DNA from: Meghimatium bilineatum
Lineage: Eukaryota; Mollusca; Gastropoda; Stylommatophora; Philomycidae
NCBI GenBank assembly: GCA_034231615.1
Contig: CM067319.1
Span: 5,411,501-5,475,500, forward strand
Reading direction: 5' to 3'
DNA: 64,000 bases
Below the pieces are notes generated by a model. It saw nothing but the letters and a program-made list of their open reading frames with translations, had not been told where the DNA came from and ran no database searches. A program made the translations under genes and the position numbers. The stretch's first letter is position 1. Each line of letters starts with the position of its first letter. Positions 7,428 to 47,916 of this stretch are shown piece by piece.

Positions 7428-7438
7428 GTAAGAATGCA

Positions 7439-8904: not shown

Positions 8905-9475
8905 GGCAAAGAGAGAAAATAGTTGACAACAATGGTGATACAGATGGAAAGAGAGTGCCACGACTGGGCTGCCAACAGAACAGAGGAAATGATCCAAGAA
9001 CTCATACTGCAGCACTCGAAGCTATACGATACAATAATTTATACAGACGGTTCAGTAACACAAGAAACAAAAAGGTGTGGTTGGGGTTTCGTGACCTACA
9101 AAAATGGCAGGGAATCAGCTGAAACGTCAGCAGTGTACCCCACTACAACATCCAGTATGAGAATGGAAATAGAAGCAGTGACAGCAGTTCTCACTTGGCT
9201 GGTAATGCAACCACCACCAGACTCAGTAATTCTATCGGACTCTCAAAGTATGCTGCGCAAGATATAACGGTGAATGATCAGAACTGAATGGGTTACTCTT
9301 CTCAACAACGCGCAGAGCATTACATGGATCTACTGTCCAGGTCGTGCTGGGGTCAGGGAAAACGAAACAGCCGATGTGTTTGCTGATAAAGCCCTGGTGA
9401 ACGGCACCGAGATAAGAAGAAACAAGATTGAATTTATTATAGAAGTCACAATGCACATATTCAGAGAATGGTAGA
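8905..9475 (+). mobile_element. Non-LTR retrotransposon fragment: RNase H domain with one break
   Basis: One frame (8923-9267) reads ECHDWAANRT, then IIYTDGSVTQETKRCGWGF, SMRMEIEAVTAVLTWL and VILSDSQSMLRKI, then a stop. The domain resumes at 9274 with WVTLLNNAQS, ITWIYCPGRAGVRENETADV. The four RNase H acids are present (TDGS, E in EIEA, SDSQS, NETAD). The canonical GHAG His is Arg (GRAG). An in-frame stop near 9265 splits it, so it is a dead copy. Confidence 0.87.
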
Positions 9476-19307: not shown

Positions 19308-19502
19308 CACTTCTACTACTACTACTATTGTTACTACTACTAATGCTATTACTTTTACTATTACTACAACTATCTTACTACTACTACTACCTTTACTACT
19401 ATAACTTTTAGTACTACTACTACTGCAACATTTACTACAACTACTTTTACTACTACTGCTGCTACTACTACTACTGCTATTATTACTTTTACTATTACTA
19501 CT
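19308..19502. repeat. (TAC)n array ending 20 bp before exon e6
   Basis: Trinucleotide array of TAC/TAT/TGC with ttttactatt spacers. It runs into the branchpoint region of the e6 acceptor. Confidence 0.95.
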
Positions 19503-19521
19503 GCAACTGTCTTTCCTCCAG

Positions 19522-19645
19522 CTACAGACCAAACAGAAGATCCACACAACCTGATAATCATTGTGAGCATCTTATTAGTTGCGATTGCTGTCATATGTGT
19601 GGCTGTCTATTTCATCTGCAGATTATTCTCCCATCATATGATTTG
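19522..19645 (+). CDS. RPTP exon e6: transmembrane segment
   Basis: The acceptor is ctttcctccag and the donor is atttg|gtaagc. The exon is 124 bp, phase 1 in and phase 2 out. It reads STDQTEDPHN, then LIIIVSILLVAIAVICVAVY and FICRLFSHHMIW. About 23 uninterrupted hydrophobic residues followed by Cys-Arg and basic residues are a single-pass helix with a cytoplasmic stop-transfer end. Its position between FN3 and phosphatase exons fixes the receptor topology. Confidence 0.9.
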
Positions 19646-20199
19646 GTAAGCATACAATTGTCCCTATATTTACTTTTCATTTCTTGTAACATGTTTTTAC
19701 ATAAAACGTTTTCTGGAACTCTCACATTTTAACTCTCCACTCGGATGCAGTTTTGTACCTCATATTTTGTACTACATATTTTGTAACTAATATTTTATAA
19801 AACATATTTTATAACTCATAGTTATAGCTCATATTTTACTCTCCTGAATATCATAATTATCATTATAATGACCAGTTTTATCATCGAATGTTGATTGCAT
19901 CAAATTCCCAAAATACTTTGTCTTTTACCTTAGTGATGCATTCTGCAGGAATTTTTTGTTTGTCTATTGCCTGTTCTCTGCATTTGCTGTAAGAAATCGC
20001 AAAAGCTTTAATTGTTCCTTCTATTATTTATCGTGCATTTCTAATGTCTAAACGGGGAAGAAGCAATAGTAACTTATTTCCTGATGATACCGTTACTACT
20101 TGACGTGACCATTTAGAGGGGTGTTAACACGGATACAACCAATTACTATTTTTATCACTTCTCTGGCAGTGTGTCTGATGGTACTACACATAGGCCTAA
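19646..20199. other. Intron 6, 5' part: no gene seen
   Basis: AT-rich. 19755-19835 has short repeats of catattttgtaactaatatt type. Nothing else is recognised. Confidence 0.5.
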
Positions 20200-20465
20200 T
20201 TTTAAGAAATTTTCCGCTCAAATTATATTTCTACGTTTGGTGTTAAACTCCTGCAGATTAACATAATGTAGTCGGAAGGACGTAATGCTTTGTTTCATTG
20301 GTTAATATCTTTCATTTCTGGCTGACACTTCGACATCAACATGGAGGTGGGTTACTTTAACCATATATGTGCTGGGACAGTCAACTCCACCTCCTTAATC
20401 GCCTCTTACATCATGCATGGAAAGAAAACAGTGCTGTTATTCTGTTCTCCCATTTCGAGCTTCTG
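20200..20465 (+). mobile_element. Dispersed repeat family, degenerate copy
   Basis: Shares ttaaactcctgcagattaac, gtagtcggaaggacgtaatg and gggacagtcaactccacctc with the better copy at 34205-34495, in the same order and spacing. It lacks recognisable pol III boxes or protein coding. Confidence 0.7.
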
Positions 20466-20926
20466 AAAAACAGAGGCGATCTTCCGTTCAATTTCTTAAA
20501 GAATATGGGATTTTTGATATATGTACGAACGTATGTAGTAATCACACTCAGTAGAAGTTGAAAAGAGCAGTGATCTATCGCTGTAGAGTCGGATGTGCTG
20601 AAATTGATCAGCAAGAACTCCAGGTAAGGGGGGCATGGTTATATTTAAGCAACCATTAAAAACGCATCGAAAACGTGATTTCTTTTTACGCGTGAAATGT
20701 TTATGTACGTGGGCAATTGTTCAACCCAAAAAACGTACAATTAATGAAGTTCGTACAGTCACATTATTTTGTTTCCTTTATATTTTTGCATGTCCAAAAA
20801 AAAAAAATATTGTGACTTTATTAAAATTTGAAACAGATTTAAATTTGGCACAAACAATAATAATGCTTAGGGGAGTAAAAGGTATTATATTGTTTTTACC
20901 GAAAGAAATTATGTTGCTATTTTTGT

Positions 20927-21250
20927 ATGCCTCGACTGACATTACAAGAGCGATTGCAAGCTGCTGGTATGCTTGTCGTTGGATTGGCGACCATAGACAT
21001 TGCCCGACATTTCATTTGTGAGCAGTTCATTCTAATAAGGCTGCACCAATAATTGATGCTGACAAGTGCCACCGATGACCGCGACAGACCTGGTCAACCT
21101 CGTAGAACCACACTTTCTCAAGATCGTCATTATGTACTGATGTATCTCCGCAATCGCTTCCATAGAGCTACTGAGACAGCAGCTGATACACCTGACAAAA
21201 GGTGGAGTGTTAGCGCAGACACTGTACGAATGAAACTTCTCTGGTTTGGA
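20927..21250 (+). mobile_element. Tc1/mariner transposase N-terminal fragment, frameshifted
   Basis: ATG at 20927 opens MPRLTLQERLQAAGMLVVGL-ATIDIARHF, the first helix-turn-helix of a Tc1-type transposase. After a stop and frameshift near 21050 the next frame gives DRDRPGQPRRTTLSQDRHYV, YLRNRFHRATETAADTP and WSVSADTVRMKL, matching the GRPR-type linker and second helix-turn-helix. The DDE/DDD catalytic part and terminal inverted repeats are not visible. Confidence 0.85.
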
Positions 21251-21332
21251 CATTATTTTTCTACATTCCTCCGAATGGCCGAGGAGAGAGATGTTTGGAG
21301 GACTTGTTTTGCTGATGTCTCTAGTGTAACAC

Positions 21333-21427
21333 TCCTACGTCCCTGACGGGTTATGGGTCTACGTCCCTGACGGGTTATGGGTCTACGTCCCTGACGGGTT
21401 TGGGGTCTACGACCGTGACGGATTATG
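21333..21427. repeat. 24-bp tandem repeat
   Basis: Four copies of tctacgtccctgacgggtta-tggg, ending 74 bp before the e7 acceptor. Confidence 0.93.
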
Positions 21428-21501
21428 GGGTTTATTATTATATACACGTTTCCTTTTGCTACCGTCATGTACTAATCATTCTAGTTCATGTATGTTTTTA
21501 G

Positions 21502-21552
21502 GAGGTTGAAACCGAGAAAAGAAATACAGGAACCAGAGATCCCTCAAACAAG
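21502..21552 (+). CDS. RPTP exon e7: juxtamembrane micro-exon
   Basis: The acceptor is tgtttttag and the donor is acaag|gtattt. The exon is 51 bp, phase 2-2. With its neighbours it reads W-RLKPRKEIQEPEIPQT-R. It is basic and short, and leads into RPVKMREL of e8. It is small, but phase and composition fit a receptor phosphatase juxtamembrane linker. Confidence 0.78.
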
Positions 21553-21611
21553 GTATTTAATATTTCATTGTATATCTGTGAGTGTTACACTATCAGAACG
21601 TTGATGAAGTG

Positions 21612-21728
21612 TGCAATGCTGATGTGTAGTGATGATGTGTAGTGATGTGTAGTGATGATGTGTAGTGATGATTTTTAGTGATGATGTGTAGTGATGTGTA
21701 GTGATGATGTTTAGTGATGATGTGTGTA
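21612..21728. repeat. tgatgatgtgtag tandem repeat
   Basis: 8-16 bp periodic units gtgatgatgtgtagtgatg after the e7 donor. Confidence 0.9.
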
Positions 21729-21779
21729 TAGATTAATTCTGCTAATCCTTCATAAATTAACTTTTCTGCACAGTTTCTT

Positions 21780-22085
21780 TATTGTAGATTAACTTTGTGC
21801 ACAAGGAATTGTGGTTCACAGTTCATATCGTGGGTTAACGTTGTACACAAGGAACTGTCGTTTACAGTTCATATCGTCGGTTAACGTTGTACAATAGGAA
21901 CTGTCGTTCACAGTTCATATCGTGGGTTAACTTTGCACACAAGGAACTGTGGTTCATAGTTCATATCATGGGTTAACTTTGTACACAAGGAAATGTGGTT
22001 CACAGTTCATATCGTGGGTTAACTTTGTACCCAAGGAATTGTGGTTCCCAGTTCATATGGTGGGCTAACATTGTTTGACAAGGTT
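21780..22085. repeat. About 48-bp tandem repeat
   Basis: Six diverged copies of a unit containing gttcatatcgtgggttaact and cacaaggaactgtggttcac. Confidence 0.9.
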
Positions 22086-22884
22086 TTGACAAGGTATTGA
22101 GGTTTACAGATCAATCCGGTTGATAGCTGCTGCCCAAATTGACGGTACAGATCGATTTGTGTAGTAGCTAATAGATTAAATGACCAATAGAATTGTCTTA
22201 TTATTTTGGATTGGTTCACAGAGAGAAGCCTTGTTCGAATATATACTTTACAAAACCACGTTCATCTTGATTGAAAACTATTACCAACAGAACCGTACAC
22301 GGAAATTTGAGCTCGGTGTCCCAAGGCACACATGACGATAAACACTATACGCACAGAACTGACTCAAAGCACACAATTCCTCTGGTGACAAGAACCCCTA
22401 TGAATAGGAAATTCCAATTTAAGGCATTGCATGCACGCCTGAACCTTGTAGTTACAGACTTTATCACTTAGCGGCATTGTTGAACGTGACATATTTATTG
22501 CATTATATGAGTAGTGGTATCGTCTCAGTTGCTAAACTGACAAGAACCTGTACTTTTGCCAGAAAGAATGTGAGCTATCAAGCGTTACCTGCTCACAACT
22601 AAAGGGATAATTCATCATCATCATGTGATAAGCAACTTTGTTACACTGATAGTTCTCTGATTCCGATTTTTCTGTAACTGTTATTAATGTAGTGGCGATG
22701 TTTTATCCTCGCTTCTTCAGAAAAGAAATATCTTTTCAGCCATCATACTTCTTAATCATTAATCACTGTTTCTCCAGTACCACATACAGTTATAAACACT
22801 GTATCTCTTTCCAACAATGTTTTACCGTGTCTTGATGAATAATCATTCTATTAATTTAACATTTGTTTCTCTGAAATATCTAAG
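22086..22884. other. Intron 7, 3' part: no gene seen
   Basis: No recognisable coding or repeat feature, apart from a short echo of agaacctgtacttttgcc near 22541 that resembles the 4734-5195 array unit. Confidence 0.5.
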
Positions 22885-22966
22885 GCCAGTCAAAATGCGA
22901 GAGCTTCAGAATCACGTAGCCAGGTTTCACAAGGATTCCAACTTGCTGTTTCAGGATGAATTTGAG
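22885..22966 (+). CDS. RPTP exon e8: start of the phosphatase domain
   Basis: The acceptor is tatctaag and the donor is tttgag|gtaagg. The exon is 82 bp, phase 2 in and phase 0 out. It reads RPVKMRELQNHVARFHKDSN-LLFQDEFE. The family pattern RP(I/V).v..l..hv...h.dsn..F..Efe marks the N-terminal edge of receptor PTP catalytic domains. It continues into TIRQVCMTF in e9. A 20-bp array starts 26 nt after the donor. Confidence 0.92.
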
Positions 22967-22991
22967 GTAAGGATCAATATTAGTCAAATAA

Positions 22992-23632
22992 CGATTGATA
23001 TACGTTAATAGAGATCGATATGTCTTAAGAAAGATCGATATGTCTTAGCAAAGATCGATATTTCTTAGCAAAGATCAATATGTCTTAGCAAAAATCTATA
23101 TTTCTTAGCAAAGATCGATATGTCTTAGCAAAAATCGATATGTCTTAGCAAAAATCGATATTTCTTAGCAAAGATCGATATGTCTTAGAAAAAATCGATA
23201 TTTCTTAGCAAAGATCGATATGTCTTAGCAAAGATCGATATTTCTTAGCAAAGATCGATATGTCTTAGCAAATATTGATATGTCTTAGCAGAGAACGATA
23301 TGTCTTAGCAAAGATCGATATGTCTTATCAAAGATCGATATGTCTTAAGAAAGATCGATATGTCTTAGCAAAAATCGATATTTCTTAGCAAAGATCGATA
23401 TGTCTTAGCAAAAATTGATATGTCTTAGCAAAGATCGATATGTCTTAGCAAAGATCGATATTTCTTAGCAAAGATCGATATGTCTTAGCAGAGATTGATA
23501 TGTCTTAGCAGAGAACGATATGTCTTAGCAAAGATCGATATGTCTTAGCAAAGATCGATATGTCTTAAGAAAGATCGATATGTCTTAGCAAAGATCGATA
23601 TTTCTTAGCAAAGATCGATACGCCTTAGCAAA
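22992..23632. repeat. 20-bp minisatellite following exon e8
   Basis: About 32 copies of aagatcgatatgtcttagca, with tttctta, aaaatc and gagaac variants arranged in partly repeated blocks. Confidence 0.96.
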
Positions 23633-23732
23633 TCTAAAATTTGATTATGATTTCCTTATGCATCCTTGCAGGCGATCAGGAAGCAGGCCAGCTACGGTTG
23701 GAAATTTTAGTCCGAATGTTACTTCTTCTCCA

Positions 23733-23860
23733 TCGTTCATTCTCAAATTCCAGTTGGATCTTTTTTATAGCAGGACACTATTCCTAGATTTCTAGAAAGT
23801 TGTAGTCCACATAATAAAATACGTTTCGTCCCCATTTTATTTGCGCCAATGGCCAGACAC
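23733..23860 (+). mobile_element. Dispersed repeat family, partial copy
   Basis: Shares cgttcattctcaaattccag, tagatttctagaaagttgta-gtcc and tttgcgccaatggccagaca with the minus-strand copy at 31755-31935. Confidence 0.65.
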
Positions 23861-24009
23861 ATTTGTCTTTGTCTGTGTTTTGTCTTATTATTGCATTGTA
23901 TGTCTTTCTCGTGAAAGTCTTATTTTCACTAGACCTAAAAATCAATTTCTTTCTCCGTGATTCATTATTGATAGTGTCCATTGTTATGTTATGTTCCTCC
24001 AGGACCATA

Positions 24010-24425
24010 GGCGACGCATAGGGCAGAAACCATAGCTTTCCATTTCTGTCTTTGTGTTGCCAGGTCTTTCAATTGTTGCGTGTTGTTTAGGTTCATTGAC
24101 ATGCCTTCTCTATTAATGGTATTCGTAGAGTTTCTCTAGGTCTCCCTCTTCTTCTTACTCCGGGTGGCACCCAATATAGTGACTGCTGGGGAATTCTTAG
24201 GCTGTTCATTCTGAGAACATGGCCGATGTAAGTCCAACGCCTTTGTCTAAAGAAGGAAGATAAATAGGTTTGTTTGCTTTCCTCTCTTATAGTAGTGTTA
24301 AATTTAAAGTCACTCCACTTAACATTCAGAATGGTACGTAGGCATTTGTTTTCAAAGGAGTCTAGTCTCTTATCTGTGGCTTTTAGTACGTGTCCATTAG
24401 TACGTGTATTATCGATGTTTGCTAT
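24010..24425 (-). mobile_element. LINE RT C-terminal fragment, minus strand
   Basis: The minus strand gives VLKATDKRLDSFENKCLRTI, LNVKWSDFKFNTTIREESKQ, RRWTYIGHVLRMNSLRIPQQ, PGVRRRGRPRETLRIPL. The FE.KCLR.iL.v.WsD...N, rW.yiGHvLRm and RRRGRPR.T motifs are a LINE C-terminus. It is a decayed, RT-less copy between e8 and e9. Confidence 0.82.
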
Positions 24426-24571
24426 TTAAACATATTAATCATTATTCATATCACATTATTTGTGTATGTGTGTTACTGTAGCCCACACATCTGATCCTGG
24501 AATCTTCTATTGGAATGCGGTAATTATATATTTGTTAATATTTGTATTGATCGCCGTCTTTTTCTATGCAG

Positions 24572-24668
24572 ACCATCAGACAAGTGTGTATGACATTCAA
24601 AACTACGTCCAATGAAGCTCAGCGTGAGGCAAACAGAATCAAGAATAGATATGTCGATATTATACCTT
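24572..24668 (+). CDS. RPTP exon e9 (copy A): phosphatase domain, pTyr loop
   Basis: The acceptor is tttctatgcag and the donor is tacctt|gtaagt. The exon is 97 bp, phase 0 in and phase 1 out. It reads TIRQVCMTFKTTSNEAQREA-NRIKNRYVDIIP. KNRY is the conserved phosphotyrosine-recognition loop, normally followed by ..I.PYDHSRV. The split codon gives Phe (PFDHSRV with e10). The donor and last exon bases are tandemly repeated downstream. Confidence 0.94.
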
Positions 24669-24729
24669 GTAAGTACTTACGATTATACCTTGTAAGTACT
24701 CAAGATTATACCTTGTAAATACTTACGAT
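24661..24729. repeat. 23-bp triplicate of the e9 exon-intron junction
   Basis: Three copies starting tataccttgtaagtacttac, at 24661, 24684 and 24707. The first contains the last 8 exon bases plus the true donor. The second repeats the donor exactly (ttgtaagtact). The third is mutated to gtaaat. Confidence 0.95.
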
Positions 24730-24744
24730 ATATATTTTTGGGTG

Positions 24745-24800
24745 GGAAGCTTTGGTGGCTCAGTGGTTAGCGGTCGCCTAGCGTCAATAGAGGACAAAAT
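24745..24800 (+). mobile_element. tRNA-derived SINE head fragment
   Basis: tggctcagtggttagcggtc (24756-24775) is a strong pol III A box. No clear B box follows, so only a head is preserved. The same fragment occurs in copy B near 47776. Confidence 0.55.
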
Positions 24801-24828
24801 GCTCAGCCTCCCCTTCCATAGTTAAAAA

Positions 24829-24900
24829 ACTTAAATAGCACACAGAAATGTATATTTGTTTACTATAATCATTTGTAAATATGTAAATAGAAAACAGATT
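24829..24900. repeat. 72-bp direct repeat left of the 53-bp array
   Basis: acttaaatagcacacagaaa ... gtaaatagaaaacagatt. An almost identical copy is at 25881-25952, so the 53-bp array is bracketed. Confidence 0.94.
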
Positions 24901-25875
24901 CTGGGAGAGAATACATTGCTACTATTTGTGTCTTCCTTCTCAGGGCTTAAACTCTGTGAGAGAATACATTGCTACTATTTGTGTCTTCCTTCTCAGGGCT
25001 TAAACTCTGTGAGAGAATACATTGCTACTATTTGTGTCTTCCTTCTCAGGGCTTAAACTCTGTGAGAGAATACATTGCTACTATTTGTGTCTTCCTTCTC
25101 AGGGCTTAAACTCTGTGAGAGAATACATTGCTACTATTTGTGTCTTCCTTCTCAGGGCTTAAACTCTGTGAGAGAATACATTGCTACTATTTGTGTCATC
25201 CTTCTCAGGCCTTAAACTCTGTGAGAGAATACATTGCTACTATTTGTGTCTTCCTTCTCAGGGCTTAAACTCTGTGAGAGAATACATTGCTACTATTTGT
25301 GTCTTCCTTCTCAGGGCTTAAACTCTGTGAGAGAATACATTGCTACTATTTGTGTCATCCTTCTCAGGCCTTAAACTCTGTGAGAGAATACATTGCTACT
25401 ATTTGTGTCTTCCTTCTCAGGGCTTAAACTCTGTGAGAGAATACATTGCTACTATTTGTGTCTTCCTTCTCAGGGCTTAAACTCTGTGAGAGAATACATT
25501 GCTACTATTTGTGTCATCCTTCTCAGGCCTTAAACTCTGTTAGAGAATACATTGCTACTATTTGTGTCTTCCTTCTCAGGGCTTAAACTCTGTTAGAGAA
25601 TACATTGCTACTATTTGTGTCTTCTTCTCAGGCCTTAAACCCTGTGAGAGAATACATTGCTACTATTTGTGTCTTCCTTCTCAGGCCTTAAACCCTGTGA
25701 GAGAATACATTGCTACTATTTGTGTCTTCCTTCTCAGGCCTTAAACTCTGTGAGAGAATACATTGCTACTATTTGTGTCTTCCTTCTCAGGCCTTAAACT
25801 CTGGGAGAGAATACATTGCTACTATTTGTGTCTTCCTTCTCAGGCCTTAAACTCTGGGAGAGAATACATTGCTAA
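24901..25875. repeat. 53-bp array of the e11 splice-acceptor/exon junction (array 1, copy A)
   Basis: About 18 copies of a 53-bp unit: tactatttgtgtcttccttc, then tcag, then ggcttaaactctgtgagaga, then atacattgc. It contains a pyrimidine tract, AG and the first 11 codons of e11 (GLNSVREYIAT). Two variants, tcttcc/agggc and tcatcc/aggcc, alternate in a three-unit (159-bp) order in the middle. It lies in intron 9, upstream of e10, so it is out of gene order. Confidence 0.97.
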
Positions 25876-25880
25876 ATACA

Positions 25881-25952
25881 ACTTAAATAGCACACAGAAA
25901 TGTATATTTGTTTACTATAATCATTTGTAAATATGTAAATAGAAAACAGATT
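25881..25952. repeat. 72-bp direct repeat right of the 53-bp array
   Basis: Partner of 24829-24900. Confidence 0.94.
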
Positions 25953-26049
25953 TCGCCGATTAAAAACAAAAATGTAATAAGAAATAACCCAGTAATATAT
26001 ACTGGGGTTTAAAGCAAAAAGAAAGAAAGACTATAATCATGACAAAAAG

Positions 26050-26565
26050 ATAATCACGGGACTATGCTTTTTGTTATAGTTAGGGGAAGACGGGACTCAG
26101 AACAAGATAACTCAGAGCAACTAAACAGTGAACTAAATGAACTGATATTAGCAGACGACCAGAGTCTCGTATACGAAAACCAAGAACAACTACAAAATCA
26201 TGTTCACTCACTATCTGCAACATGTAGAAAATACAACATGAAGATCAATACACAAAAAGTGGAAACTATGAAAATATGCAGAAAACAGAGCCCACCAAAC
26301 TTACAGATAGGCAACATAGGAGTAAAACAAGTATCGGAGTTCAAATATCTGTTTTTATTTTCAAAGAAAATGGAAGCCCTGATAGAGAAATATAGACGAG
26401 ACGTCAAAAGAAAAAAAAAAGCCGTAACATACCAACTATCACCACTACTTCTTCATCCTAAGATCGAGATGAAAGTTAAAAGAGAAATAATTTACAATAT
26501 ATTCCTACCAACACTGTGTTACAAGCGCCAAACCTTCACATTACACAAAGATAGGGACATGTGAG
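26050..26565 (+). mobile_element. Non-LTR reverse transcriptase fragment
   Basis: The frame 26064-26564 reads LILADDQSLVYENQEQLQNH, CRKYNMKINTQKVETMKICR, FKYLFLFSKK, LHPKIEMKVKREIIYN, FLPTLCYKRQTFTL. LADD corresponds to the RT catalytic [YF]ADD box (Tyr replaced by Leu), followed by the thumb-like L.iN..K.e.m. and f.YLG-type segments (Gly lost). It is one reading frame but truncated at both ends. Confidence 0.86.
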
Positions 26566-26800
26566 ATGAAATGTCTATTTAATACCATCACATCATTACC
26601 TATTTCCAAATAAAATTCATCTATTTAATACCAACAAATCATTACCTATTTCCAAATAAAATGCATCTATTTAATACCAACACATCATTACCTATTTCCA
26701 AATAAAATGCATCTATTTAATACCAACACATCATTACCTATTTCCAAATAAAATGCATCTATTTAATACCAACAAATCATTACCCTGTTTCCAAATAAAA
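26566..26800. repeat. 46-bp tandem repeat before exon e10
   Basis: Five copies of a unit with catctatttaataccaacac and attacctatttccaaataaa. It ends about 60 bp before the e10 acceptor. Copy B has four. Confidence 0.94.
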
Positions 26801-26859
26801 TAATTCACTTTCTATGCACAATTGTGAATTCCTGATTTAACATTGAAAAATGTTTTCAG

Positions 26860-26939
26860 TTGATCACAGCAGAGTGAAGTTGGATGTACAACCAGAGGGG
26901 GACGAAACGAACGACTTCATCAATGCCAACTATATCCCT
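26860..26939 (+). CDS. RPTP exon e10 (copy A): DHSRV segment
   Basis: The acceptor is tgttttcag and the donor is atccct|gtgagt. The exon is 80 bp, phase 1 in and phase 0 out. It reads FDHSRVKLDVQPEGDETNDF-INANYIP, the highly conserved [YF]DHSRV.L and dFINAnYI core of classical PTPs. Identical in copy B. Confidence 0.95.
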
Positions 26940-27952
26940 GTGAGTCATTCATTGTTAGTTAGTTTGTTTGTTAGTCAGTCAGTTGAAGCATACATACGTT
27001 TCTCGGAGTAAAACGTGTCCTCTGCTTGACAGAATTAGGAGTGTGGGTAACAAGCGTGTCACGAGAACCATTAGCAGGTATACCTTTCAGTATCTGCTGG
27101 TGGAGGCAGAGCGCGCATCGATCGATCTTCCGAAATACAATTAGATCAGCTCACGACCAGTTATCTGTTGGTGATGATTAGATAGAACAAATGAGATCTG
27201 TATGTTCAATCTCATTCAGAATATGTTCAACTTCATTCAGGAAATGATTGCGATATTCTCAGCCTCAATCGGGGTATGGTGGCTATATGTTCAGCCTCAT
27301 TCAGAATATACTAGCTATATTCTCAAATTCATGAAGATATACTGGCAATAATCTCAGTCTCATTCAGAATATATTAGCAATATTCTCAGCCTCATTCAGG
27401 ATACGATGAATGCTGTTCTTCTTTGTCTCCCCCTTCCCCCACATTTCGAACTCGTTAAGACACTGACCTTCGTAACTCTGTTATATTTATGCCAGCGATA
27501 TGACGCAAGTGGAATTGTTAATTGCCCAGCAAAATGTCCTTGCATAGCGAATCATATTGAATATGTATGAACCATTTTACTGGTGTTTTACAAGGAACAG
27601 AATGTGAGCAACGAATAATGAAGTGAAAACAAAACTGTACCACTTATAGTGAGGAGGAACGTACTTTTCAACTGCAGACAGTCCAATCTCGTGGAATATC
27701 ATTCAACAGGAACATTGTCATTTCAGAGTTGAAGAAATGTTCGGCAGAATGTCCCCCATTAAAACGAATAGTAAAGAATCATTAATATGTGACTGAATCT
27801 GATGGAGTCAAAATCTCGATTTTCTTAAGGATCTATGATCAGATCACTTTCACGAATAATAATCACTACCATCATCAACACCATCATCATCATCATCTGA
27901 GTCAATAAATATAAAATATTAAAAGATGTGTTTACAGCAAGCAAAATATCCT
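26940..27952. other. Intron 10: no gene; weak 35-bp repeats at 27210-27405
   Basis: Imperfect repeats of attctcagcctcattcagaa, a CAT/ATC run at 27866-27898, and otherwise unassigned AT-rich DNA. Confidence 0.6.
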
Positions 27953-28340
27953 ACTATTTGTGTCTTCCTTCTCAGGGCTTAAACTCTGTGAGAGAATACA
28001 TTGCTACTATTTGTGTCTTCCTTCTCAGGGCTTAAACTCTGTGAGAGAATACATTGCTACTATTTGTGTCTTCCTTCTCAGGGCTTAAACTCTGTAAGAG
28101 AATACATTGCTACTATTTGTGTCTTCCTTCTCAGGGCTTAAACTCTGTGAGAGAATACATTGCTACTATTTGTGTCTTCCTTCTCAGGGCTTAAACTCTG
28201 TGAGAGAATACATTGCTACTATTTGTGTCTTCCTTCTCAGGGCTTAAACTCTGTGAGAGAATACATTGCTACTATTTGTGTCTTCCTTCTCAGGGCTTAA
28301 ACTCTGTGAGAGAATATATTGCTACTCAGGGTCCAATGCA
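27953..28340. repeat. 53-bp array of the e11 junction (array 2, copy A), running into exon e11
   Basis: Seven copies of the same 53-bp unit. The last becomes the real exon e11: its cttctcag at 28286-28293 is the functional acceptor. From each earlier acceptor the reading GLNSVREYIATICVFLLRA reaches TAA in the next unit. Confidence 0.97.
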
Positions 28341-28428
28341 TTCTACAGTCCCAGACTTCTGGCGTATGGCGTGGGAGCAGAAGTGCCAGGTTATCGTCAT
28401 GTTGTCTGACCTACAGGAGGATGGAAAG
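28294..28428 (+). CDS. RPTP exon e11 (copy A): TQGP / DFWRM segment
   Basis: The acceptor is cttccttctcag and the donor is ggaaag|gtaagg. The exon is 135 bp, phase 0-0. It reads GLNSVREYIATQGPMHSTVP-DFWRMAWEQKCQVIVMLSDL-QEDGK. YIATQGP, DFWRM.WE and IVML are PTP family landmarks. The first 34 bases are also the 3' part of the 53-bp repeat unit. Only the unit followed by tcagggtccaat gives the true coding sequence. Confidence 0.95.
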
Positions 28429-28439
28429 GTAAGGTTATA

Positions 28440-28562
28440 CTCAATTCTAGTAAGTTTCAATTTTAGCAGCTATAAGTTTTCAATGTTAACAGCTATAATG
28501 TTTCTATGTTAACAGTTATGAGGTTTCAATGCTAACAACTGTAAAGTTTCAATGTAAAAAAG
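28440..28562. repeat. About 22-24 bp repeat after the e11 donor
   Basis: Four to five copies of gtttcaatgttaacagctat with drift. Longer in copy B (51310-51535). Confidence 0.88.
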
Positions 28563-28589
28563 TGGAAAGCGTTAATATCAGTAAGCAGA

Positions 28590-28930
28590 AATGAAACTGT
28601 TAATGCTTCGAACTTTTATTTTTCCGGTTGCAAAATACGGCTGTGAAACATGGACCCTAAGTAAAACAGCGGCAAAGATCAACGCCTTTGAGCTGAAATG
28701 CTACAGAAAGATACTTAGAATATCATGGAAGGAAAAAATCAGAAACTCGGATATTATAAACACATTGAAGATTCCAATGTGTTGGTTACTAAACATAATA
28801 GCAAAAATAAAACTACACCAATTTGGTCACATAAAGAGAAACAACTCTTTATAAACACAAATAATGTGGGGCAGTGTACCTGGGAAGAGGAGAAAGGACA
28901 GACCAAGAAGACAATGGACTGACGAAATTA
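28590..28930 (+). mobile_element. LINE RT C-terminal fragment
   Basis: It reads RTFIFPVAKYGCETWTLSKT, FELKCYRKILRISWKEKIRN, SDIINTLKIP, IAKIKLHQFGHIKRNN and, in a second frame, PGKRRKDRPRRQWTDEIKDN. YGCETWTL, R.ILRI.W.ekirNsdI, FGHI.R and GkRrk.RPRRqW.deI are the classic LINE C-terminus. Frameshifted near 28855. Confidence 0.9.
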
Positions 28931-28959
28931 AAGATAACGAATACATCGTTGGAAAATGC

Positions 28960-29845
28960 AAGCCGCATCGCCCAAGAAAGAGAAGGGTTCAGAGAGTTAT
29001 TGGAAAGACAACGCTTCCCAATCTCATTCTCCCGCTTTCGCAACTCTCCCGGGGATCTTCCTCATCCTCTGATACAGTTAAACGTGTTCTTACCTGTCAT
29101 CCCGATTACTATCTGGTGCATCCTGCTTAACCATTATTCCCTTCTCCAATCTGATCCTAATACCCGCACCGCTTTTAAAGACTTACCTTTGGTGGCTTAT
29201 AGGCAAGACAAAAATCTGAAGGACATCTTGGTCCATAGCCATCTTAGGTCTTCTGTTCCCAACCATTTTATTACTGTTCGTTGATCACACGGTTATTACT
29301 ACACATGTCCTTATGTGGTTCAGATGCGCTCCATTTCATTTCCCAAGGCCCTTTTTCCATCGATAAGACCTTTACATGTGAATCCCGTAATGTAATTTAC
29401 GTGTTCATATGTAAACAATGCGGCAAGCAGTATATTGGGGAAACCGACTTAAGATTCAGCGACCGCTTCTGTAACCATCTTCATGCCATCAAACACAAAA
29501 ATCTACTCCTGATGCCACACACTTCAACGGCGATGGTCACCATGGGATCCTTGATACGCAATTCACTGCCATCAGATCCTGCACCACCGATGATAGATCT
29601 AGGTACGCTCTAGAAAATGTTCCTATTGCTATCATTCGGGCACCTGACATTCATATTCCACTCGGACACGTTTATGTGGTGTGATCATTTCTAATCGTCA
29701 TATTTTTAATTATATGTGCGTATCTTGATATGTCCTTGTGGTTGAAACCTTGATTATGTCCTGTGTTCTGTTGTGTGTATTATTTCACATGAGCATCCGA
29801 TAGTGATTGTGTGTTAGTCGTCGTTCAGAAAGACTTCATTAACTG
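28960..29845 (+). mobile_element. Penelope-like element fragment with GIY-YIG endonuclease
   Basis: The first frame gives DLPLVAYRQDKNLKDILVHS (the pre-endonuclease linker of Penelope-like elements). The next gives TCESRNVIYVFICKQCGKQY, IGETDLRFSDRFCNHLHAIK. NVIY and KQYIGET correspond to the GIY-YIG core, and FSDRFcnH.h.I to the catalytic Arg-His helix region. Several frameshifts. It may have landed inside the preceding LINE tail. The 3' end carries gatagtgattgtgtgttagt and the gtgagtactat motif near 29855, seen again in the extra copy at 55243-55432. Confidence 0.85.
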
Positions 29846-30521
29846 TTTCCTTCGTGAGTACTATATTAATGGTGTTAGTAAGTCGGTGATGTTTCATAGG
29901 CACAAATAACAAATCATAAAGCATACAAAACATTTGTAAAAATATAGTTCTATAGAAGAAGTACTAGAAGCTTCCACAAGAAGAATCGAAGCTCTGACTA
30001 TAGTTATGTCATCTAGTTTCTGTTACGTGGTGATTGGACTAGTAGATCATTGGTGAGCACAGCAGATATTCCACGTCTTATTTAAACATTGTTCTTGCTA
30101 AGCTGCGCTACCGTGCGTTAGGGCACATATTTTTATTCATTAGCGCACAGAGTTTAGACTTGCTCACAAGATATACATATAAAAATGTGTGTATAGATTC
30201 TTAGAATAAAAATATAACTTTCCTTAAATAGAATATGCTGAAGAAGACTATCTTGTGTTTAGGTACAAGGTTTGCCTATATAAAGTGGTATGCAAAATGT
30301 ATCAGCCCATTGAGATATATTTCTGCTCACAAGCATTTTGTCTTAGAGGGAACATTGCCTTCAAACTCTCTTCTCTAGTACAAGCAACCTTCTTCTTCGG
30401 CGATGGTTCTCAAACTCCTGCACATCAGCAGGATGCATATCCTTTCTAATTAAAAACCTTTTTAATCAGGTATCAACCATATCTTCTTACCAAAGATGTA
30501 TCTCCAATCCTATCAACATCT
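29846..30521. other. Intron 11: no gene; dispersed-family fragment near 30393-30445
   Basis: ggttctcaaactcctgcaca-tcagcagga matches the head of the dispersed family at 34205. The rest is unassigned. Confidence 0.5.
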
Positions 30522-30600
30522 ACATCCTTAGTGCAATCCTTAGTGCAACCCTTAGTGCAATCCTTAGTGCAATCCTTAGTACAATCCTTAATGTAATCCG
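30522..30600. repeat. 12-bp array (cttagtgcaatc) before exon e12
   Basis: About six copies, ending 36 bp before the e12 acceptor. Copy B has about four. Confidence 0.93.
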
Positions 30601-30635
30601 CATATTATAATAAACTGCTCTTTGAATCTACACAG

Positions 30636-30761
30636 CTGAAGGTTGACCAGTACTGGCCAGATAATCTTAATGAACCAGTCAATTTTGAAAACGTGCTTGT
30701 AGAAATGACCAATTTCTCACAGCTAAATAAGTACAGCATACGCAACTTTCGAATCAGAAAG
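30636..30761 (+). CDS. RPTP exon e12 (copy A): QYWP segment
   Basis: The acceptor is atctacacag and the donor is agaaag|gtaaac. The exon is 126 bp, phase 0-0. It reads LKVDQYWPDNLNEPVNFENV-LVEMTNFSQLNKYSIRNFRI-RK. QYWP and the alternating strand pattern ending in the R.f.i. segment are PTP-specific. The usual KC before .QYWP reads LKV here. Identical in copy B. Confidence 0.94.
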
Positions 30762-31104
30762 GTAAACAAATGATTTACTATTTCATTTATTAGATATAAT
30801 GTTGACATTTTATCACAGATATTGAGTATTTGTGGCACCCTTCGTTCATACGCATTCCCAGCATCGAAGGTTGACTACACCAAATCACTAATATGCTCTT
30901 ATCTCTTGTCTTGGTGGTGCACTTTGATAGAATATACGAATATATTGTACATCGCATGATATTTCCATCACAAAATATTATCTCTGCCTACCTTTTTCAC
31001 GCTGCCCATCAGGTAAGATCTTCAACAAGATGGTTTTTTGTTACGTATCCAAAATATTTTATGACTTATATTTCCTGAGAATTTATTTTCATATGCAGTT
31101 TTTT

Positions 31105-31412
31105 TCTTCTCCGCTGTTCCTAGAATTCTTGCACATCTGTATCTAGAATTCTTGCAGATTTGTTACTAGAATTCTTGCAAATTTGTTAATAGTATTCTTG
31201 CAAATTAGCATTTGTAGTTCAGAGAAAGAAATGCATTAAATTATGGTTTACAACTGTATCTAGAATTCTTGCAGATTTGTTACTAGAATTCTTGCAGATT
31301 TGTTACTAGAATTCTTGCAAATTTGTTACTAGAATTCTTGCAGATTTGTTCCTAGAATTCTTGCAAATTTGTTCCTAGAATTCTTGCAAATTTGTTACTA
31401 GAATTCTTGCAA
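31105..31412. repeat. 23-bp minisatellite derived from the dispersed repeat family
   Basis: Two blocks (about 31118-31200 and 31257-31405) of ctagaattcttgcaaatttg-tta. Each block ends in ttgcaaattagcatttgtag-ttcagag, which is the dispersed-family head (ctcctgcagattagcagtat-gtagtccgaag at 34243). Confidence 0.9.
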
Positions 31413-31754
31413 ATTAGCATTTGTAGTTCAGAGAAAGAAATGCATTAAATTATGGTTTACAACTGTATCTTGATATTTGCGCCTTTTGGTCTAATACATC
31501 CGACTTTAGCATAGATTATGAGTCACTTTGCATTATATAAAATGGGACAGCCAACTCCACCCGAAAACCTCATTAGTTACCTCTTACGACATACATAAGG
31601 TAAACAGTGCTGCTGTTCTTTGCTTCCCTCTGGGGCTCCGGCAACACATGGGTTTCATATGCTGTGTAGCTATAACCTCTTTATTTGTTCTCTCTGCCTA
31701 CCAAGGTATACCAATTCTTCCACTTATCCATATTTGAAAGGCCTTAGTTCTCTC
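31413..31754 (+). mobile_element. Dispersed repeat family, plus-strand copy
   Basis: Runs from tagttcagagaaagaaatgc through tgcgccttttggtctaatac, gggacagccaactccacccg to ccggcaacacatggg, in the same order as 34240-34490. Confidence 0.8.
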
Positions 31755-31935
31755 TTCTATATGTTTATACTCCGCCGAATACGGATGTGTCGGGCCATTG
31801 GCGCAAAAGAAAACGGCGACACAACACATTTCCATTCTCTGGACTACATCCTGCTGGAAATCTAGTAGGACCATGGTCCTGCTGCAAGGGAGATCCAGCA
31901 GGAGTTTGCGAATGAACGCCGAAAAAAAAAATATG
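31755..31935 (-). mobile_element. Dispersed repeat family, minus-strand copy
   Basis: The complement reads ttcggcgttcattcgcaaac, tcctgctggatctc, gatgtagtccagagaatgga and tttgcgccaatggcccgaca. Abutting the plus-strand copy it forms an imperfect head-to-head pair. A run of A follows at 31921-31930. Confidence 0.78.
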
Positions 31936-32280
31936 TTTGTTCCTATGCTTTGTTTACTAAATTGCTAACTATTTATTTATATTTTTATCTATTGTTTATT
32001 GTCGTGCCCCTACGTGGTTGGCGGCACTACTGATTCATACCGTTAAGTAGACGTGGGAGCTTTAGTTTACGTTTCAATACCAGATGTGTCACCTACGTTG
32101 TGCAATATCCATGATCGTTTAATGTCTCGTGGATATTATCTATCCGTTTCTGTAATGTTACAGACGAATTCTTCTAACTCCTATAGAGAGCATAAATAAA
32201 ACGTGTAGTCAAAAAATGAAATAGAGATGCATAGATATCCACAAGAATGATTACGTTCAATAGTGAAACAACAAAAACTT
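31936..32280. other. Intron 12: no gene seen
   Basis: Unassigned AT-rich sequence, highly similar in copy B (54817-55160). Confidence 0.5.
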
Positions 32281-32505
32281 ACTTGGTTTGGACATATATG
32301 CCGACATGATTCCTTGTAAGAAAGAAAAAATACTGCAGAAAAGGTGGAAGAAACAGAGGAGGGCAAATAGCAATATGGATAGACATTAAGGACTGGACAA
32401 GACAATATTTTTCCTCACTTGTCTGCATTGTTGTAGATAGAAATCGCTGGAGGAATCTGTATGTTGGTGCATCAAATGTGGTACTCCTGCGACAATGATG
32501 TATTA
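32281..32505 (+). mobile_element. LINE C-terminal fragment
   Basis: It reads LTWFGHICRHDSL then, frameshifted, GGRNRGGQIAIWIDIKDWTR and VDRNRWRNLYVGASNVVLLR with a stop. The WFGHi.R, RGgq...WiddIkdWt and DR.RWR.l.v.as motifs are a LINE C-terminus. In copy B it is cut at about 55243 and replaced by other sequence. Confidence 0.8.
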
Positions 32506-32679
32506 CGAGTTCATATTTAGATAGATCCATTTTTTTGGGTCTTCCTTGTTCTCTGTAGTCAGATTGTGTTTTATTATATTCTATTGTAGGATTTATTACA
32601 TTCTCTCACAAGATATCCAAAACAATTAGTAGTTGCTGTCTCTCGACATATTCAATACATAACATATCATACCTGTTCT

Positions 32680-32952
32680 ATTTGTGAAGTATTAGTATAT
32701 ATACTTTGTGAAGTATTAGTTTATAATATAATTTGTGAAGTATTAGTTTATAATATAATTTGTGAAGTATTAGTTTATAATATAATTTGTGAAGTATTAG
32801 TTTATAATATAATTTGTGAATTATTAGTTTATAATATAATTTGTGAATTATTAGTTTATAATATAATTTGTGAAATATTAGTATATAATATAATTTGTGA
32901 AATATTAGTATATAATATAATTTGTGAAGTATTAGTTTATAATATAATTTGG
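32680..32952. repeat. 27-bp minisatellite (copy A only)
   Basis: About nine to ten copies of tttgtgaagtattagtttat-aatataa. Copy B keeps a single unit at 55434-55465. Confidence 0.94.
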
Positions 32953-33517
32953 AATTAAAGGTAATAGCTGTCGACTAAATGAAATATAGTTGCAAATTAT
33001 TGTAAATACTGGCCGTGAAAAGTTGAAAATTTTTGTAATTACTAGCCGTGAATATTTGCAAATTATTGAAAATACTGGCTGTGAATATTGCTTGTGCGTT
33101 GGTTTACAAATTCATGCTGACTCACTTTGTAGCATGAAATGACATGTATGATAACAATAAGCATAAACCAATGTTTCTACCAAAAGACTTTTATCAAGAT
33201 GACGAAATATATCACACGATAAGTAAGAAACAACACTGTTCATGTGCAGATAATAATGGCTAGGAATAGGCATAATTAAAATTGCTATCCATTATTATGT
33301 GAATGTTGACAGTGCTATTTCTGGTTTGTCATGCGTTGTGTTTTTGATAAACTTTACTCTGAAACGTCGATTTTTTGTGTGCTATTGTGTATTATCAGGG
33401 ATTAGTAAAACTTCATTATCCTGTTTCAGCGTTTATACGTTTTGTGGTATGAAATATTTCAGTACACAGCGGGTCAAATACTTAACTAATGCAGCATACA
33501 TTTAAATCAATTTGCAG
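32953..33517. other. Intron 12, 3' part: no gene; short tandem atttgcaaattattgaaaat
   Basis: Two to three copies of an about 32-bp unit with tgcaaattattgaaaatact at 32988-33085. The open frame 33299-33505 is conserved in copy B simply because the whole segment is duplicated; no motif is seen. Confidence 0.55.
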
Positions 33518-33669
33518 GGTGAAGAGTCACGCAAAGTGACTCAGTTTTTCCTTCCCGGGTGGTGGGACTTCAGTGCTAATTTGAGTTTCGATGACGTTCT
33601 TGAATTCGTTAAGGTGGTCAGACAAGAGATTACCCCTGAAGTCTCAGGTCCAGTCATAGTACACTGCAG
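33518..33669 (+). CDS. RPTP exon e13 (copy A): WPD-type loop and start of the active-site motif
   Basis: The acceptor is caatttgcag and the donor is actgcag|gtaaaa. The exon is 152 bp, phase 0 in and phase 2 out. It reads GEESRKVTQFFLPGWWDFSA-NLSFDDVLEFVKVVRQEITP-EVSGPVIVHC. The general-acid loop, normally WPD, is WWD: the Asp is kept and Pro is replaced by Trp (TGG at 33563-33565). PVIVHC begins the catalytic HC..GxGR motif finished by e14. Copy B has Thr instead of Lys in FVKVV. Confidence 0.95.
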
Positions 33670-33689
33670 GTAAAATATTCTTCACTGTC

Positions 33690-33740
33690 TAATTTGATTG
33701 ATTGTAATGTTAACTAATTTGATTGATTGTAATGTTAACT
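33690..33740. repeat. 25-bp repeat after the e13 donor, two copies (copy A)
   Basis: Two copies of taatttgattgattgtaatg-ttaac. Copy B has about 16. Confidence 0.95.
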
Positions 33741-34204
33741 AAAGTTGTTGGTATATTACTAAAGCTTGGCCATAATAAAATGTCAACAAGTAAACACATT
33801 TATCAACGTTTCTACCGAGAGTACTCAATCATAAATACAAACAAGGAACACATAAGAATAGAGGTGAAATAAATCGAAATTGTCGGGTAAACAAGAGGAA
33901 GACTGAGATTATGATGGATACTTCTCCATATTGAAGACCTTCTGAAGATGACACTAAAAAATACTATATAGATTGAACAGAACTCAGAGTCTTACAGAGT
34001 GGAAGTTACGACAGCGTTGTGCAAAGGGTACATGCGTCACACAGAGAAATAATATTGGGAAACGCTACGATAGGAAACAGCGTACCACAAATGAATCGTA
34101 GTTCATAATCAAGGACTCATATGTCAGAATGCTGGTTTTCAGAAAGCTGAATAAATCATTAATGCACGTAGGCCTATACATAAAAATGTTTTATTATATA
34201 GAAT
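33741..34204. other. Intron 13, 5' part: no gene seen
   Basis: 33880-33960 (ggtaaacaagaggaagactg) vaguely resembles a LINE C-terminal tail but has no readable motif. Confidence 0.4.
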
Positions 34205-34497
34205 TTTAACTTCTTCTTCTTCTGCGTTCATTCTAAAACTCCTGCAGATTAGCAGTATGTAGTCCGAAGAACGGAATGCGTTGTGTCATGGTTTTACAGC
34301 ATTGCTGGGATATCTGCGCCTTTCGGTCTGACACATCCGACTTCAGCATGGCTTTGGGTCACTGACCCTATATGGGATGGGACAGCCAACTCCATCCCAT
34401 AACCTCCTTAGTCGCCTTTTACGACATGCTTGGTAGGTAAACAGTGTTGCTATTCTTTGCTCCCCTTTCGGGCCCCGACAATACACGGGCGTAGAAT
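34205..34497 (+). mobile_element. Dispersed repeat family, best copy
   Basis: Starts at a ttcttcttcttc tract, then tgcgttcattctaaaactcc-tgcagattagcagtatgtag, gcgcctttcggtctgacaca, gggacagccaactccatccc, cgccttttacgacatgcttg and cgggccccgaca. About 290 bp, no coding and no clear pol III boxes. At least six relatives lie in this window. Confidence 0.8.
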
Positions 34498-34559
34498 TTT
34501 AACAATTAGATATGATGATGATGATGTTCCTACTTCGCAAGCGAAGATGAGCATGACAT

Positions 34560-35855
34560 GAAACAACAATAAAATGTGATGAAGAAATATTTTAAACAAA
34601 TAATAAATCCTTAGTTCTTGTTCTAATTTGGTTAGTAAGTTCGTAGATGCCCGATGAGTCCGATTCGTGCCAGAAAGGATCTATTTCAGGGCGTGCAGGA
34701 TCGCAGAGTATTCCAAGTAGGAGAGTTTTCGGATTTTTCCTTCTACTTCCGTCCCCTGTAAATTTCCCGCAGTGTTCTTCCTTTTTCAAATTTAGTGATG
34801 CCAGCAGTGATCTGGGTGTGCCAAGCTGAGCGATCAAAGGCTTTAGTCTCCTAGGAGCTAGGATCGATGCTGCAGGCCTGAGAGAGTTTTTCAAGTGTTT
34901 TTTAAGTGCTGTTTTCTTCCCTCTCCTTGAACGCATACCATCGCACAGCTCCCCATAGAAAAATCTCTTTGGAAGATGCTTGTCTGGATTACAAACGATG
35001 TCGCCAGTTCTAGTAGAGTTGAGACCTAATCAAAAACGTCATGGGTACTTTGCATACGGAACTTTTGAAGGATTTCCGTGTCTGGTATTCGATCCTGCAA
35101 ACGTACTCCCATGAGGTTTCTAAGGCACCGATGGTGGAAAGAGTTAAGCTGTCGAGCGTTTCTCACATGGACAGTCCAGGATAACGCAGCAGAAAGCAAT
35201 GTTGGTAGAACCACTGGGTAGCACACATCCAACTTAATTGTCAAACTGAGACGACGTCTGATCCAGACGTCGGCATTAAGGCTCCCGAATGCCACACTGG
35301 CACGAATAATACGTAGGGCAACATCCTTGCGTCAATTGTCGCAGTTTACGATAGGGTGCTGGCGAGATATACGAACGTATAGGCAGTATTGAATTTCTGT
35401 CTCTTTACTGTGATTACTGGTTCTGTGTATGGGACACCTGGCACTTGTTGATACATTACTAATGTTTTATCCACCAGCTCGATAGCAAAAGCAAATTCCT
35501 GCACTTTTATTCTGGAAGGCATCATTTAACATGGAAGAGAACACCATGCCGAGGAGCGTCGAAGCCAGGAGAAACCCTGTTTGACACCGTTAGTTACTGG
35601 AAACGGGTTAGAGTGTGCGCCGTCATCTTGCACACAGGCTGTCATGCCATCATGGAACTGGCGAACCATGTTGGTGATTTCTGGGGGGGGGGGGGCATCC
35701 AAATTTGGTCATGATCTTTCATAGTTCTTCGCGATTTACAGTGTCGAATGCCTTAGTCAGGTCGACAAATGTGATATAGAGTCAAATGCTCTGTTCGCGA
35801 CACTTTTCCTGTAATTGTCTGGCAGTGAATATCATGCATACAAATGTTTTATTAT
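34560..35855 (-). mobile_element. LINE reverse transcriptase fragment, minus strand
   Basis: On the minus strand, 35790-35540 gives ITFVDLTKAFDTVNREEL, KFGCP, EITNMVRQFHDGMTACVQDD, PFPVTNGVKQGF (RT boxes with the first catalytic Asp region FVDLTKAFD and the VKQG box). 35295-35026 gives LPTLLSAALSWTVHVRNARQ, FHHRCLRNLMGVRLQDRIPD. 34936-34592 gives MRSRRGKKTALKKHLKNSL and a divergent tail. The YADD region and reading frame are broken. Related to the family at 11335. It is the longest RT span in copy A. Confidence 0.87.
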
Positions 35856-35869
35856 ATAGACATTGTGGC

Positions 35870-36117
35870 GGGGAATGACCACAGTTAACCCTATCTTGGC
35901 AGCAGAGGAATGACCACAGTTAACCCTAACTTGGCTGCAGAGGAATGACCACAGTTAACCCTATCTTGGCTGCAGAGGAATGACCACAGTTAACCCTATC
36001 TTGGCTGCAGAGGAATGACCACAGTTAACCCTAACTTGGCTGCAGAGGAATGACCACAGTTAACCCTAACTTGGCTGCAGAGGAATGACCACAGTTAACC
36101 CTATCTTGGCTGCAGAG
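35870..36117. repeat. 35-bp tandem repeat
   Basis: Seven copies of ggaatgaccacagttaaccc-tatcttggctgcaga with tatc/taac alternation. Also seven in copy B, unlike the other arrays, which vary. Confidence 0.95.
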
Positions 36118-36555
36118 GCTCGGAGCAGTGCATAGGTTGAAACATTACTTCCTGGAGGTGTGATAGTTATTCACTGGCTCTGGCCCTGGGAGGGATAAAA
36201 ATCCACAGACTTCCCAGCAATATAATGCCATTTTAATGGCATTGGATCAAAAGACATGAGCCCATGGACCGCTGGATCAGAAATCATCCAACCATTATAT
36301 AGAAGTTTCACAATTAAATATATTATAACTTAGAAGCAGTAGAGCATTGTATTCAAGCGTTTACCGACTAGGTCTGCTGAATTCATTATCTGGGTAACTA
36401 TTTCAACGATCTAGCGTGAACTTTAACCTAAAAGCAAAAGAAGATATGTTTTATAATTATTTGTTTACTGCTTTTATTGCCATGGTCACCAATTATTGCT
36501 AGGGAAGTTGAGTTTATGCCTTATTGCACTTCAATGGTTGATTGAATATTTTCAG
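36118..36555. other. Intron 13, 3' part: no gene seen
   Basis: Unassigned sequence leading to the e14 acceptor. Nearly identical in copy B. Confidence 0.5.
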
Positions 36556-36700
36556 TGCTGGTGTTGGTCGCACAGGTACAATGATTGCCTTAGACTACTT
36601 CATGCAATATGTGGAACAACACAATTTGGATGATGAAATAGACATTTTTAACTATGTTCTGAAGATGCGGAAAAACCGGCCCCGTATGGTGCAAGCAGAA
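36556..36700 (+). CDS. RPTP exon e14 (copy A): catalytic P-loop and Q-loop start
   Basis: The acceptor is atattttcag and the donor is gcagaa|gtaagc. The exon is 145 bp, phase 2 in and phase 0 out. With e13 it makes VHC-SAGVGRTGTMIALDYFMQ-YVEQHNLDDEIDIFNYVLKM-RKNRPRMVQAE. HCSAGVGRTG is the complete PTP signature (nucleophile Cys, phosphate-binding Arg). RPRMVQ is the start of the Q-loop. The domain should continue with an exon beginning near .QY.F...al.e, which I could not find before the satellite. Identical in copy B. Confidence 0.96.
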
Positions 36701-36919
36701 GTAAGCCAAACTGTATTTTCTTGTTTTGATTCTAAGGGGATGTTCAAACATTACATCATAGATTCCCAAACTTCTGGGGACCACCGCCCACTTTATAAGA
36801 CATAAATGTTTTATAGCGCTCCCCCCCCCCCCATTATAACTGTTTTCCGCGTTCACGTCGTTTGATATTTTCGATGTAAATAATACCTAATGATATATTA
36901 CTGCTTATGCCGCTAAAGC

Positions 36920-38345: not shown

Positions 38346-38394
38346 GCCACTTAAATAAACGAACATTGGTTCCATCACCAATGTGTGGGCAGGC

Positions 38395-38545
38395 ATGTGT
38401 TGACATTAGACGGGACATGTTGTCTGTCAGATGTTGACATGAGATGGGACATGTTGTCTGTCAGATGTTGACATGAGATGGGACATGTCTGTCAGATGTT
38501 GACATGAGATGGACATGTCTGTCAGATGTTGACGAATGCATCTCA
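38395..38545. repeat. About 34-bp tandem repeat before the satellite
   Basis: About four copies of gttgacatgagatgggacat-gttgtctgtcagat. Two in copy B (61262-61336). Confidence 0.9.
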
Positions 38546-38582
38546 AAACAGCTGATATATGGTGAGCTACTTAAGAGAAGAA

Positions 38583-47820: not shown

Positions 47821-47916
47821 TCAGCCTCCCCTTCCATAGTTAAACAACTTAAATAGCACACAGAAATGTATATTTGTTTACTATAATCATTTGTAAATAT
47901 GTAAATAGAAAACAGA

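Follow-up and report, generated by a model that had tools for sequence, protein, structure and literature searches.

The window, by which we mean the whole 64,000-nucleotide stretch of DNA analysed, contains part of a gene that, judged by its sequence, encodes a receptor-type tyrosine phosphatase. Nine exons on the plus strand, e6 to e14, join into a single open frame of 330 codons, and a Pfam scan matched this frame to the Y_phosphatase domain (PF00102, E 2.4e-70). The motif VHCSAGVGRTG is intact in the joined frame and conforms to HC(X)5R, while the position that we take to be the WPD loop (33518-33669) reads WWD, with the aspartate kept. A hydrophobic stretch in e6, upstream of the PTP domain, was taken by eye as the membrane segment. 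The five best protein matches came from Elysia (62% identity), Plakobranchus (65%), Candidula (63%) and Biomphalaria (56%), presumably all heterobranch gastropods, and from Mercenaria, which we take to be a bivalve; no near-identical protein was found among the best 120 of 746 matches, the set that was considered. Among the matches listed, many of the relatives are named PTPRB, PTPRO or PTP10D, a group that we assume to be the 'R3' receptor-type tyrosine phosphatases. Pfam matched no FN3 domain in the two candidate ectodomain pieces scanned, and the view of the gene in the window ends at e14. The FN3 label given by eye to a candidate exon at about 7273-7427 was dropped, since Pfam returned one unrelated match there (E 0.21) and none to FN3. 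Nine bases past the GT (7428) that closes this candidate exon begins an 18-bp array (7437-7610) with nine GTAAGT donor-like sites. Remains of retroelements were also seen, namely an RNase H remnant at 8923-9267 (PF00075, E 1.2e-11) and a reverse-transcriptase remnant inside intron 9 at 26043-26564 (PF00078, E 6.1e-7, just above the cut-off).

Three exons of the gene concern us here, all on the plus strand and in open frame with the rest of e6-e14: e9 (24572-24668, within the Y_phosphatase match), e10 (26860-26939) and e11 (28294-28428). The last, of phase 0 and 135 bp long, encodes GLNSVREYIATQGP...EDGK. When the query was aligned with nine relatives, REYIA and QG of e11 were invariant, and eight of the nine residues of REYIATQGP were invariant or nearly so.

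Directly before e11, and running into it, lies an array of 53-bp units (27951-28330, plus strand). In each unit the last 20 nt of the intron (ATTTGTGTCTTCCTTCTCAG) are followed by the first 33 nt, or 11 codons, of e11, the intron-exon boundary being placed at the e11 start from frame and conservation. The first-pass annotation had described the unit as a splice acceptor with the first 11 codons of e11, and the array as one that ends in the real exon and offers seven acceptors; both descriptions were confirmed. Tandem Repeats Finder reported 7.1 copies with 99% matches. All seven units have the AG, giving six decoy acceptors and the real one at 28293/28294. The units vary at only 2 of 53 positions, one inner unit and the unit in the exon being the only ones to depart from a uniform array, and around the acceptors 39 nt are identical in all seven and 48 nt in six of the seven. 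A 42-base core of the unit, with three mismatches or fewer allowed, matched 47 times in the window and not once in 100 shuffles. The four arrays of this unit in the window hold 49 units, 25 of them identical letter for letter, and no reverse-strand copies were found in the window. A mobile-element origin of the unit was set aside after its 33-base core gave no exact match in viral contigs, which is a weak test.

The four arrays fall into two copies of the region. Copy A, described above, and copy B are collinear from 24533 of copy A onward, with 93.9-99.5% identity by segment. Exon e11 of copy B (51169-51303, plus strand) has one synonymous difference from that of copy A, and over e9-e14 there is one other, a change of K to T in e13, making 2 differences in 735 bp. 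Segments chosen to leave out the 53-bp arrays, but with exons and other repeats in them, gave 326 mismatches in 12,006 aligned bp, a count from automatic alignment through other repeats that may be inflated. At that rate about 20 differences per 735 bp would be predicted, so the coding sequence appears to be under constraint in spite of the arrays.

Immediately upstream of copy B is an assembly gap of exactly 100 Ns (47451-47550), with a satellite on its other side. Because copy B follows the gap directly, a second genomic copy is not required; copy B is quite probably the other haplotype placed in tandem, in which case the array lengths may in part be assembly products, and the collinearity and the two exonic differences agree with this. 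The sequence would also be compatible with a genuine tandem duplication whose breakpoint falls inside the gap, as e14 joined to e9 of copy B keeps the frame, both being phase 0. The question touches only the number of loci, for both copies have the arrays, with differing numbers of units (7 in A and 9 in B before e11; 18 and 15 in intron 9). The satellite has a 23-bp unit in about 386 copies at 38576-47450, downstream of e14, runs into the gap and resumes downstream of copy B from 61380. Elsewhere, a 25-bp array has 16.2 copies in B (56204-56607) and 2.2 in A (33689-33742).

The array before e11 in copy B (50720-51205, plus strand; 9.1 copies, 97% matches) was expected to offer about nine acceptors. 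Nine units are indeed present, but only six have the AG, since units 1-3 read CTCAT, with CAT in place of CAG; this leaves five live decoys and the real acceptor. Units 1-2 and 8-9 have TCG and TAT, as the exon itself does, and one middle unit has a CATCC...GCC variant that is recurrent in the intron-9 blocks.

Use of a decoy before e11 would bring the frame to an early stop. From each of the six decoys of copy A the frame reads GLNSVREYIATICVFLLRA and then meets a stop; the five live decoys of copy B likewise stop after 19 codons, three of them with exactly this peptide, so the proposal that decoys lead to a set peptide and a stop holds as to the stop throughout, and as to the exact peptide for copy A and three of the five decoys of B. 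The conserved REYIATQGP is obtained from the last acceptor only. Splice sites were scored with position matrices of human type, not trained on molluscs. By these the real e11 acceptor and the six decoys of copy A all score 7.98, as do four of the five live decoys of copy B, the fifth scoring 5.28; with the real site counted, five of the six live acceptors of B share the top score, which bears out the earlier statement that the acceptors are nearly equal. Outside the 53-bp arrays only 1 of 4733 AGs scores at least 7.9. A strict yUnAy branch-site motif, looked for 15-62 nt upstream of the acceptors, has its single occurrence at -42 of the first decoy and is absent from inside the 53-bp unit. The local sequence thus gives the real e11 site no edge and, if anything, favours the first decoy.

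These features could be read as a regulatory rheostat, the amount of phosphatase mRNA that escapes decay depending on how many poison acceptors there are. Such a reading would draw on the stop after 19 codons behind all eleven live decoys, on the score that ten of them share with the real site, on the rarity of such scores elsewhere and on the branch-site motif before the first decoy. We nevertheless hold it unlikely, because the AG is lost in three of the nine units of copy B (although the three losses may stem from a single change), because junctions are not enriched in arrays in this gene, and because comparable arrays of amphioxus are reported without disturbed splicing in the accessible parts of PMC3087553 and PMC3902484. 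For a row of poison acceptors a function is possible, but it would not be needed to explain the array.

Could RNA structure single out the real acceptor? Pairing was predicted for all seven CAG/G sites of copy A (unpaired probability 0.001-0.005), and the real one was not predicted to be more open than the decoys, so structure was rejected as a discriminator. For the 53-nt unit RNA a hairpin across the junction is predicted (z -2.31; equalled by 4 of 200 shuffles), and the unit dimer also folds well (z -2.77, 1 of 200), although against a control that preserves the repetition the dimer result is weak (13 of 200 as good). The stretch around the real junction folds poorly (z +0.83, 158 of 200 shuffles as good), and for a 541-nt stretch the figure was 6 of 100 shuffles. 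A DNA hairpin as the cause of expansion found no support, 58 of 200 and 33 of 200 shuffles being as good.

We also considered that the decoys might be spliced as 12-nt in-frame microexons, GGCTTAAACTCT between an AG and GTGAGA, with each unit used adding GLNS to the protein. A GT does sit 12 nt past the AG in all seven units before e11 in copy A, and in four of the nine units of copy B the site TCG/GTGAGA scores 3.06, similar to the donors of e9 (3.13) and e10 (2.80). The corresponding TCT/GTGAGA of copy A scores only -0.47, and no insert is seen at the GLNS site in any of the nine relatives aligned, although these are gene predictions from other species, which may lack the array. Exons of 12 nt with introns of 41 nt are unlikely without special help, and we regard this possibility as very unlikely.

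The same 53-bp unit also occurs away from its exon. In copy A an ectopic array of 18 units with partial ends (24901-25880, plus strand; AG in 18 of 18) sits within intron 9, upstream of e10 and thus not next to e11, and copy B has 15 units at the equivalent place (47919-48740, plus strand; AG in 15 of 15). The array of copy A is flanked by 71-bp direct repeats (24830-24900 and 25882-25952, plus strand) with 0 mismatches between them, and the block of copy B likewise lies between perfect 71-bp direct repeats (47848-47918 and 48740-48810). Since perfect repeats flank the block in both copies, it probably arrived by a separate event, perhaps by templated insertion during repair. When e9 was joined to any of the 33 intron-9 units of the two copies, a stop was reached within the array or shortly beyond it. 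The true acceptor of e10 scores -4.66, and the 18 decoys of intron 9 in copy A score 5.3 to 8.2. One could imagine a movable poison-acceptor cassette that spread from e11 to intron 9, such that array lengths in two successive introns would tune phosphatase output and exchange of units would alter this output quickly between individuals; on the present sequence we consider this very improbable.

A second array lies on another junction of the same gene. Tandem Repeats Finder identified 3.3 copies of a 23-bp unit (24659-24734, plus strand) over the end of e9 and its GTAAGT, and with the exon ends predicted here this is a second junction array, of the donor type. Its second GTAAGT is equal to the first and the third is weaker, and both decoys lead to a frameshift and a stop. 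The unit includes the palindrome GTAAGTACTTAC, and its dimer folded better than every one of 200 dimers made from shuffled units.

Arrays cover 23% of the region 19400-38400. Of the 18 junctions of the nine exons of copy A in this region, 2 lie in arrays, where circular shifts led one to expect 4.2, in a test of one gene that has little power. Given this coverage and these counts, junction seeding needs no special cause, and special seeding by junctions was put aside as unneeded. In a repeat-rich genome some array must fall on some junction, and that chance overlap is all there is to explain seems to us somewhat better than an even bet, the observed and expected counts agreeing with it, albeit from a test based on one gene. 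By itself it would leave unexplained the intron-9 block of the 53-bp unit between 71-bp repeats, for which a transfer event is needed.

The first-pass annotation knew of no named class of repeats seeded by a functional intron-exon junction, but such a class has been described in amphioxus under the name 'mirage' (accessible parts of PMC3087553 and PMC3902484). The unit of the e11 array spans the intron-exon boundary as placed above, the units form a tandem minisatellite-like array before the exon (7.1 and 9.1 copies), and most but not all of them keep the AG (7 of 7 in A, 6 of 9 in B). With its boundary set by frame and conservation, we read the e11 array as a new mirage-type minisatellite, in a mollusc. 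Searches of the open-access literature, outside which most subscription journals lie, found no mirage in molluscs, the described cases being from amphioxus only.

A close likeness is to the amphioxus globin genes BflGb6 and BflGb9, both of which carry mirages according to the text available of PMC3087553. That of BflGb6 is, like the e11 array, a minisatellite-like duplication of the 3' end of an intron and the 5' part of an exon, and that of BflGb9 duplicates the 3' boundary of its exon. In these globin mirages the splice signals are kept in many but not all units, the edge units escape homogenisation, unit number differs between haplotypes (6 and 3) and RT-PCR indicated regular splicing (same source). 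Their units are larger, about 150-160 bp compared with 53 bp at e11, and the accessible text of PMC3087553 makes no mention of an ectopic copy in another intron, such as is present here. The same text cites Canestro et al. 2002 for mirages of amphioxus Adh3 with length instability, in another gene and another phylum than the e11 array. As far as the accessible part of PMC3902484 goes, 5' and 3' splice sites of amphioxus PGBD5 are covered by tandem repeats of 60 and 108 bp with imperfect units, in contrast to the nearly uniform units before e11 in copy A, and the mirages of Adh and TnC are said there to generate no aberrant mRNAs. In human duplicated genes, repeats of minisatellite type lie at exon-intron boundaries, differ from one paralogue to another and can form new introns (accessible part of PMC2812944), whereas the e11 array gave no sign of a new intron. 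What was available of two papers on the origin of introns (PMC2586383, PMC2891723) held nothing decisive for the e11 array.

Taken together, we favour, with a probability of about 0.7, the explanation that the e11 array is a mirage-type minisatellite born between two CTACT motifs, grown by slippage or unequal exchange and tolerated with no need of a regulatory role. The left edge of the array reads CCTACTATTTG and e11 at the end of the last unit reads GCTACTCAGG. The two CTACT motifs are now 371 bp apart, which is 7 x 53, and would be 53 bp apart once the array is collapsed, so that a single duplication between motifs at this spacing, the first lying in the intron just upstream of the pyrimidine tract and the second in e11, would have founded the array. 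Later growth may have come from slippage or unequal exchange. The CATCC...GCC variant in a middle unit of copy B and TCG and TAT in its edge units suggest that units were exchanged, the putative partners being the exon start and the intron-9 block. Tolerance of the array would follow if exon definition favours the last acceptor, because a complete exon and a donor of good score (7.4) follow this one only; a transcript spliced to a decoy, with its stop after 19 codons, would be expected to undergo decay.

Several observations sit uneasily with this explanation. The sole yUnAy motif, at -42 of the first decoy, would by itself favour that decoy, predicted RNA pairing gives the real acceptor no advantage, and the weak acceptor of e10 must beat 18 decoys with higher scores. 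Mirages, moreover, are described only from amphioxus in the open-access literature searched. In favour of the same explanation, the amphioxus arrays belong to the same class and their splicing is reported as undisturbed in the accessible parts of PMC3087553 and PMC3902484, and in the gene region tested arrays are common and show no enrichment at junctions.

If the gene is transcribed and correctly spliced, the e11 intron would be a natural test of acceptor choice, with seven competing acceptors in one intron. As these are identical over 39 nt, discrimination between them would come mainly from exon context farther away, from their order or from the use of branch sites; in early studies by Reed and Maniatis, where splice sites were duplicated, the deciding factors reportedly seemed to be exon sequence and proximity. 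On the same condition, mirages would be extended from amphioxus to molluscs, with mirages of both the donor and the acceptor type in a single gene and an ectopic copy in the neighbouring intron. This would fit the idea that genomes rich in arrays give rise to junction repeats as a side effect of the birth of minisatellites.
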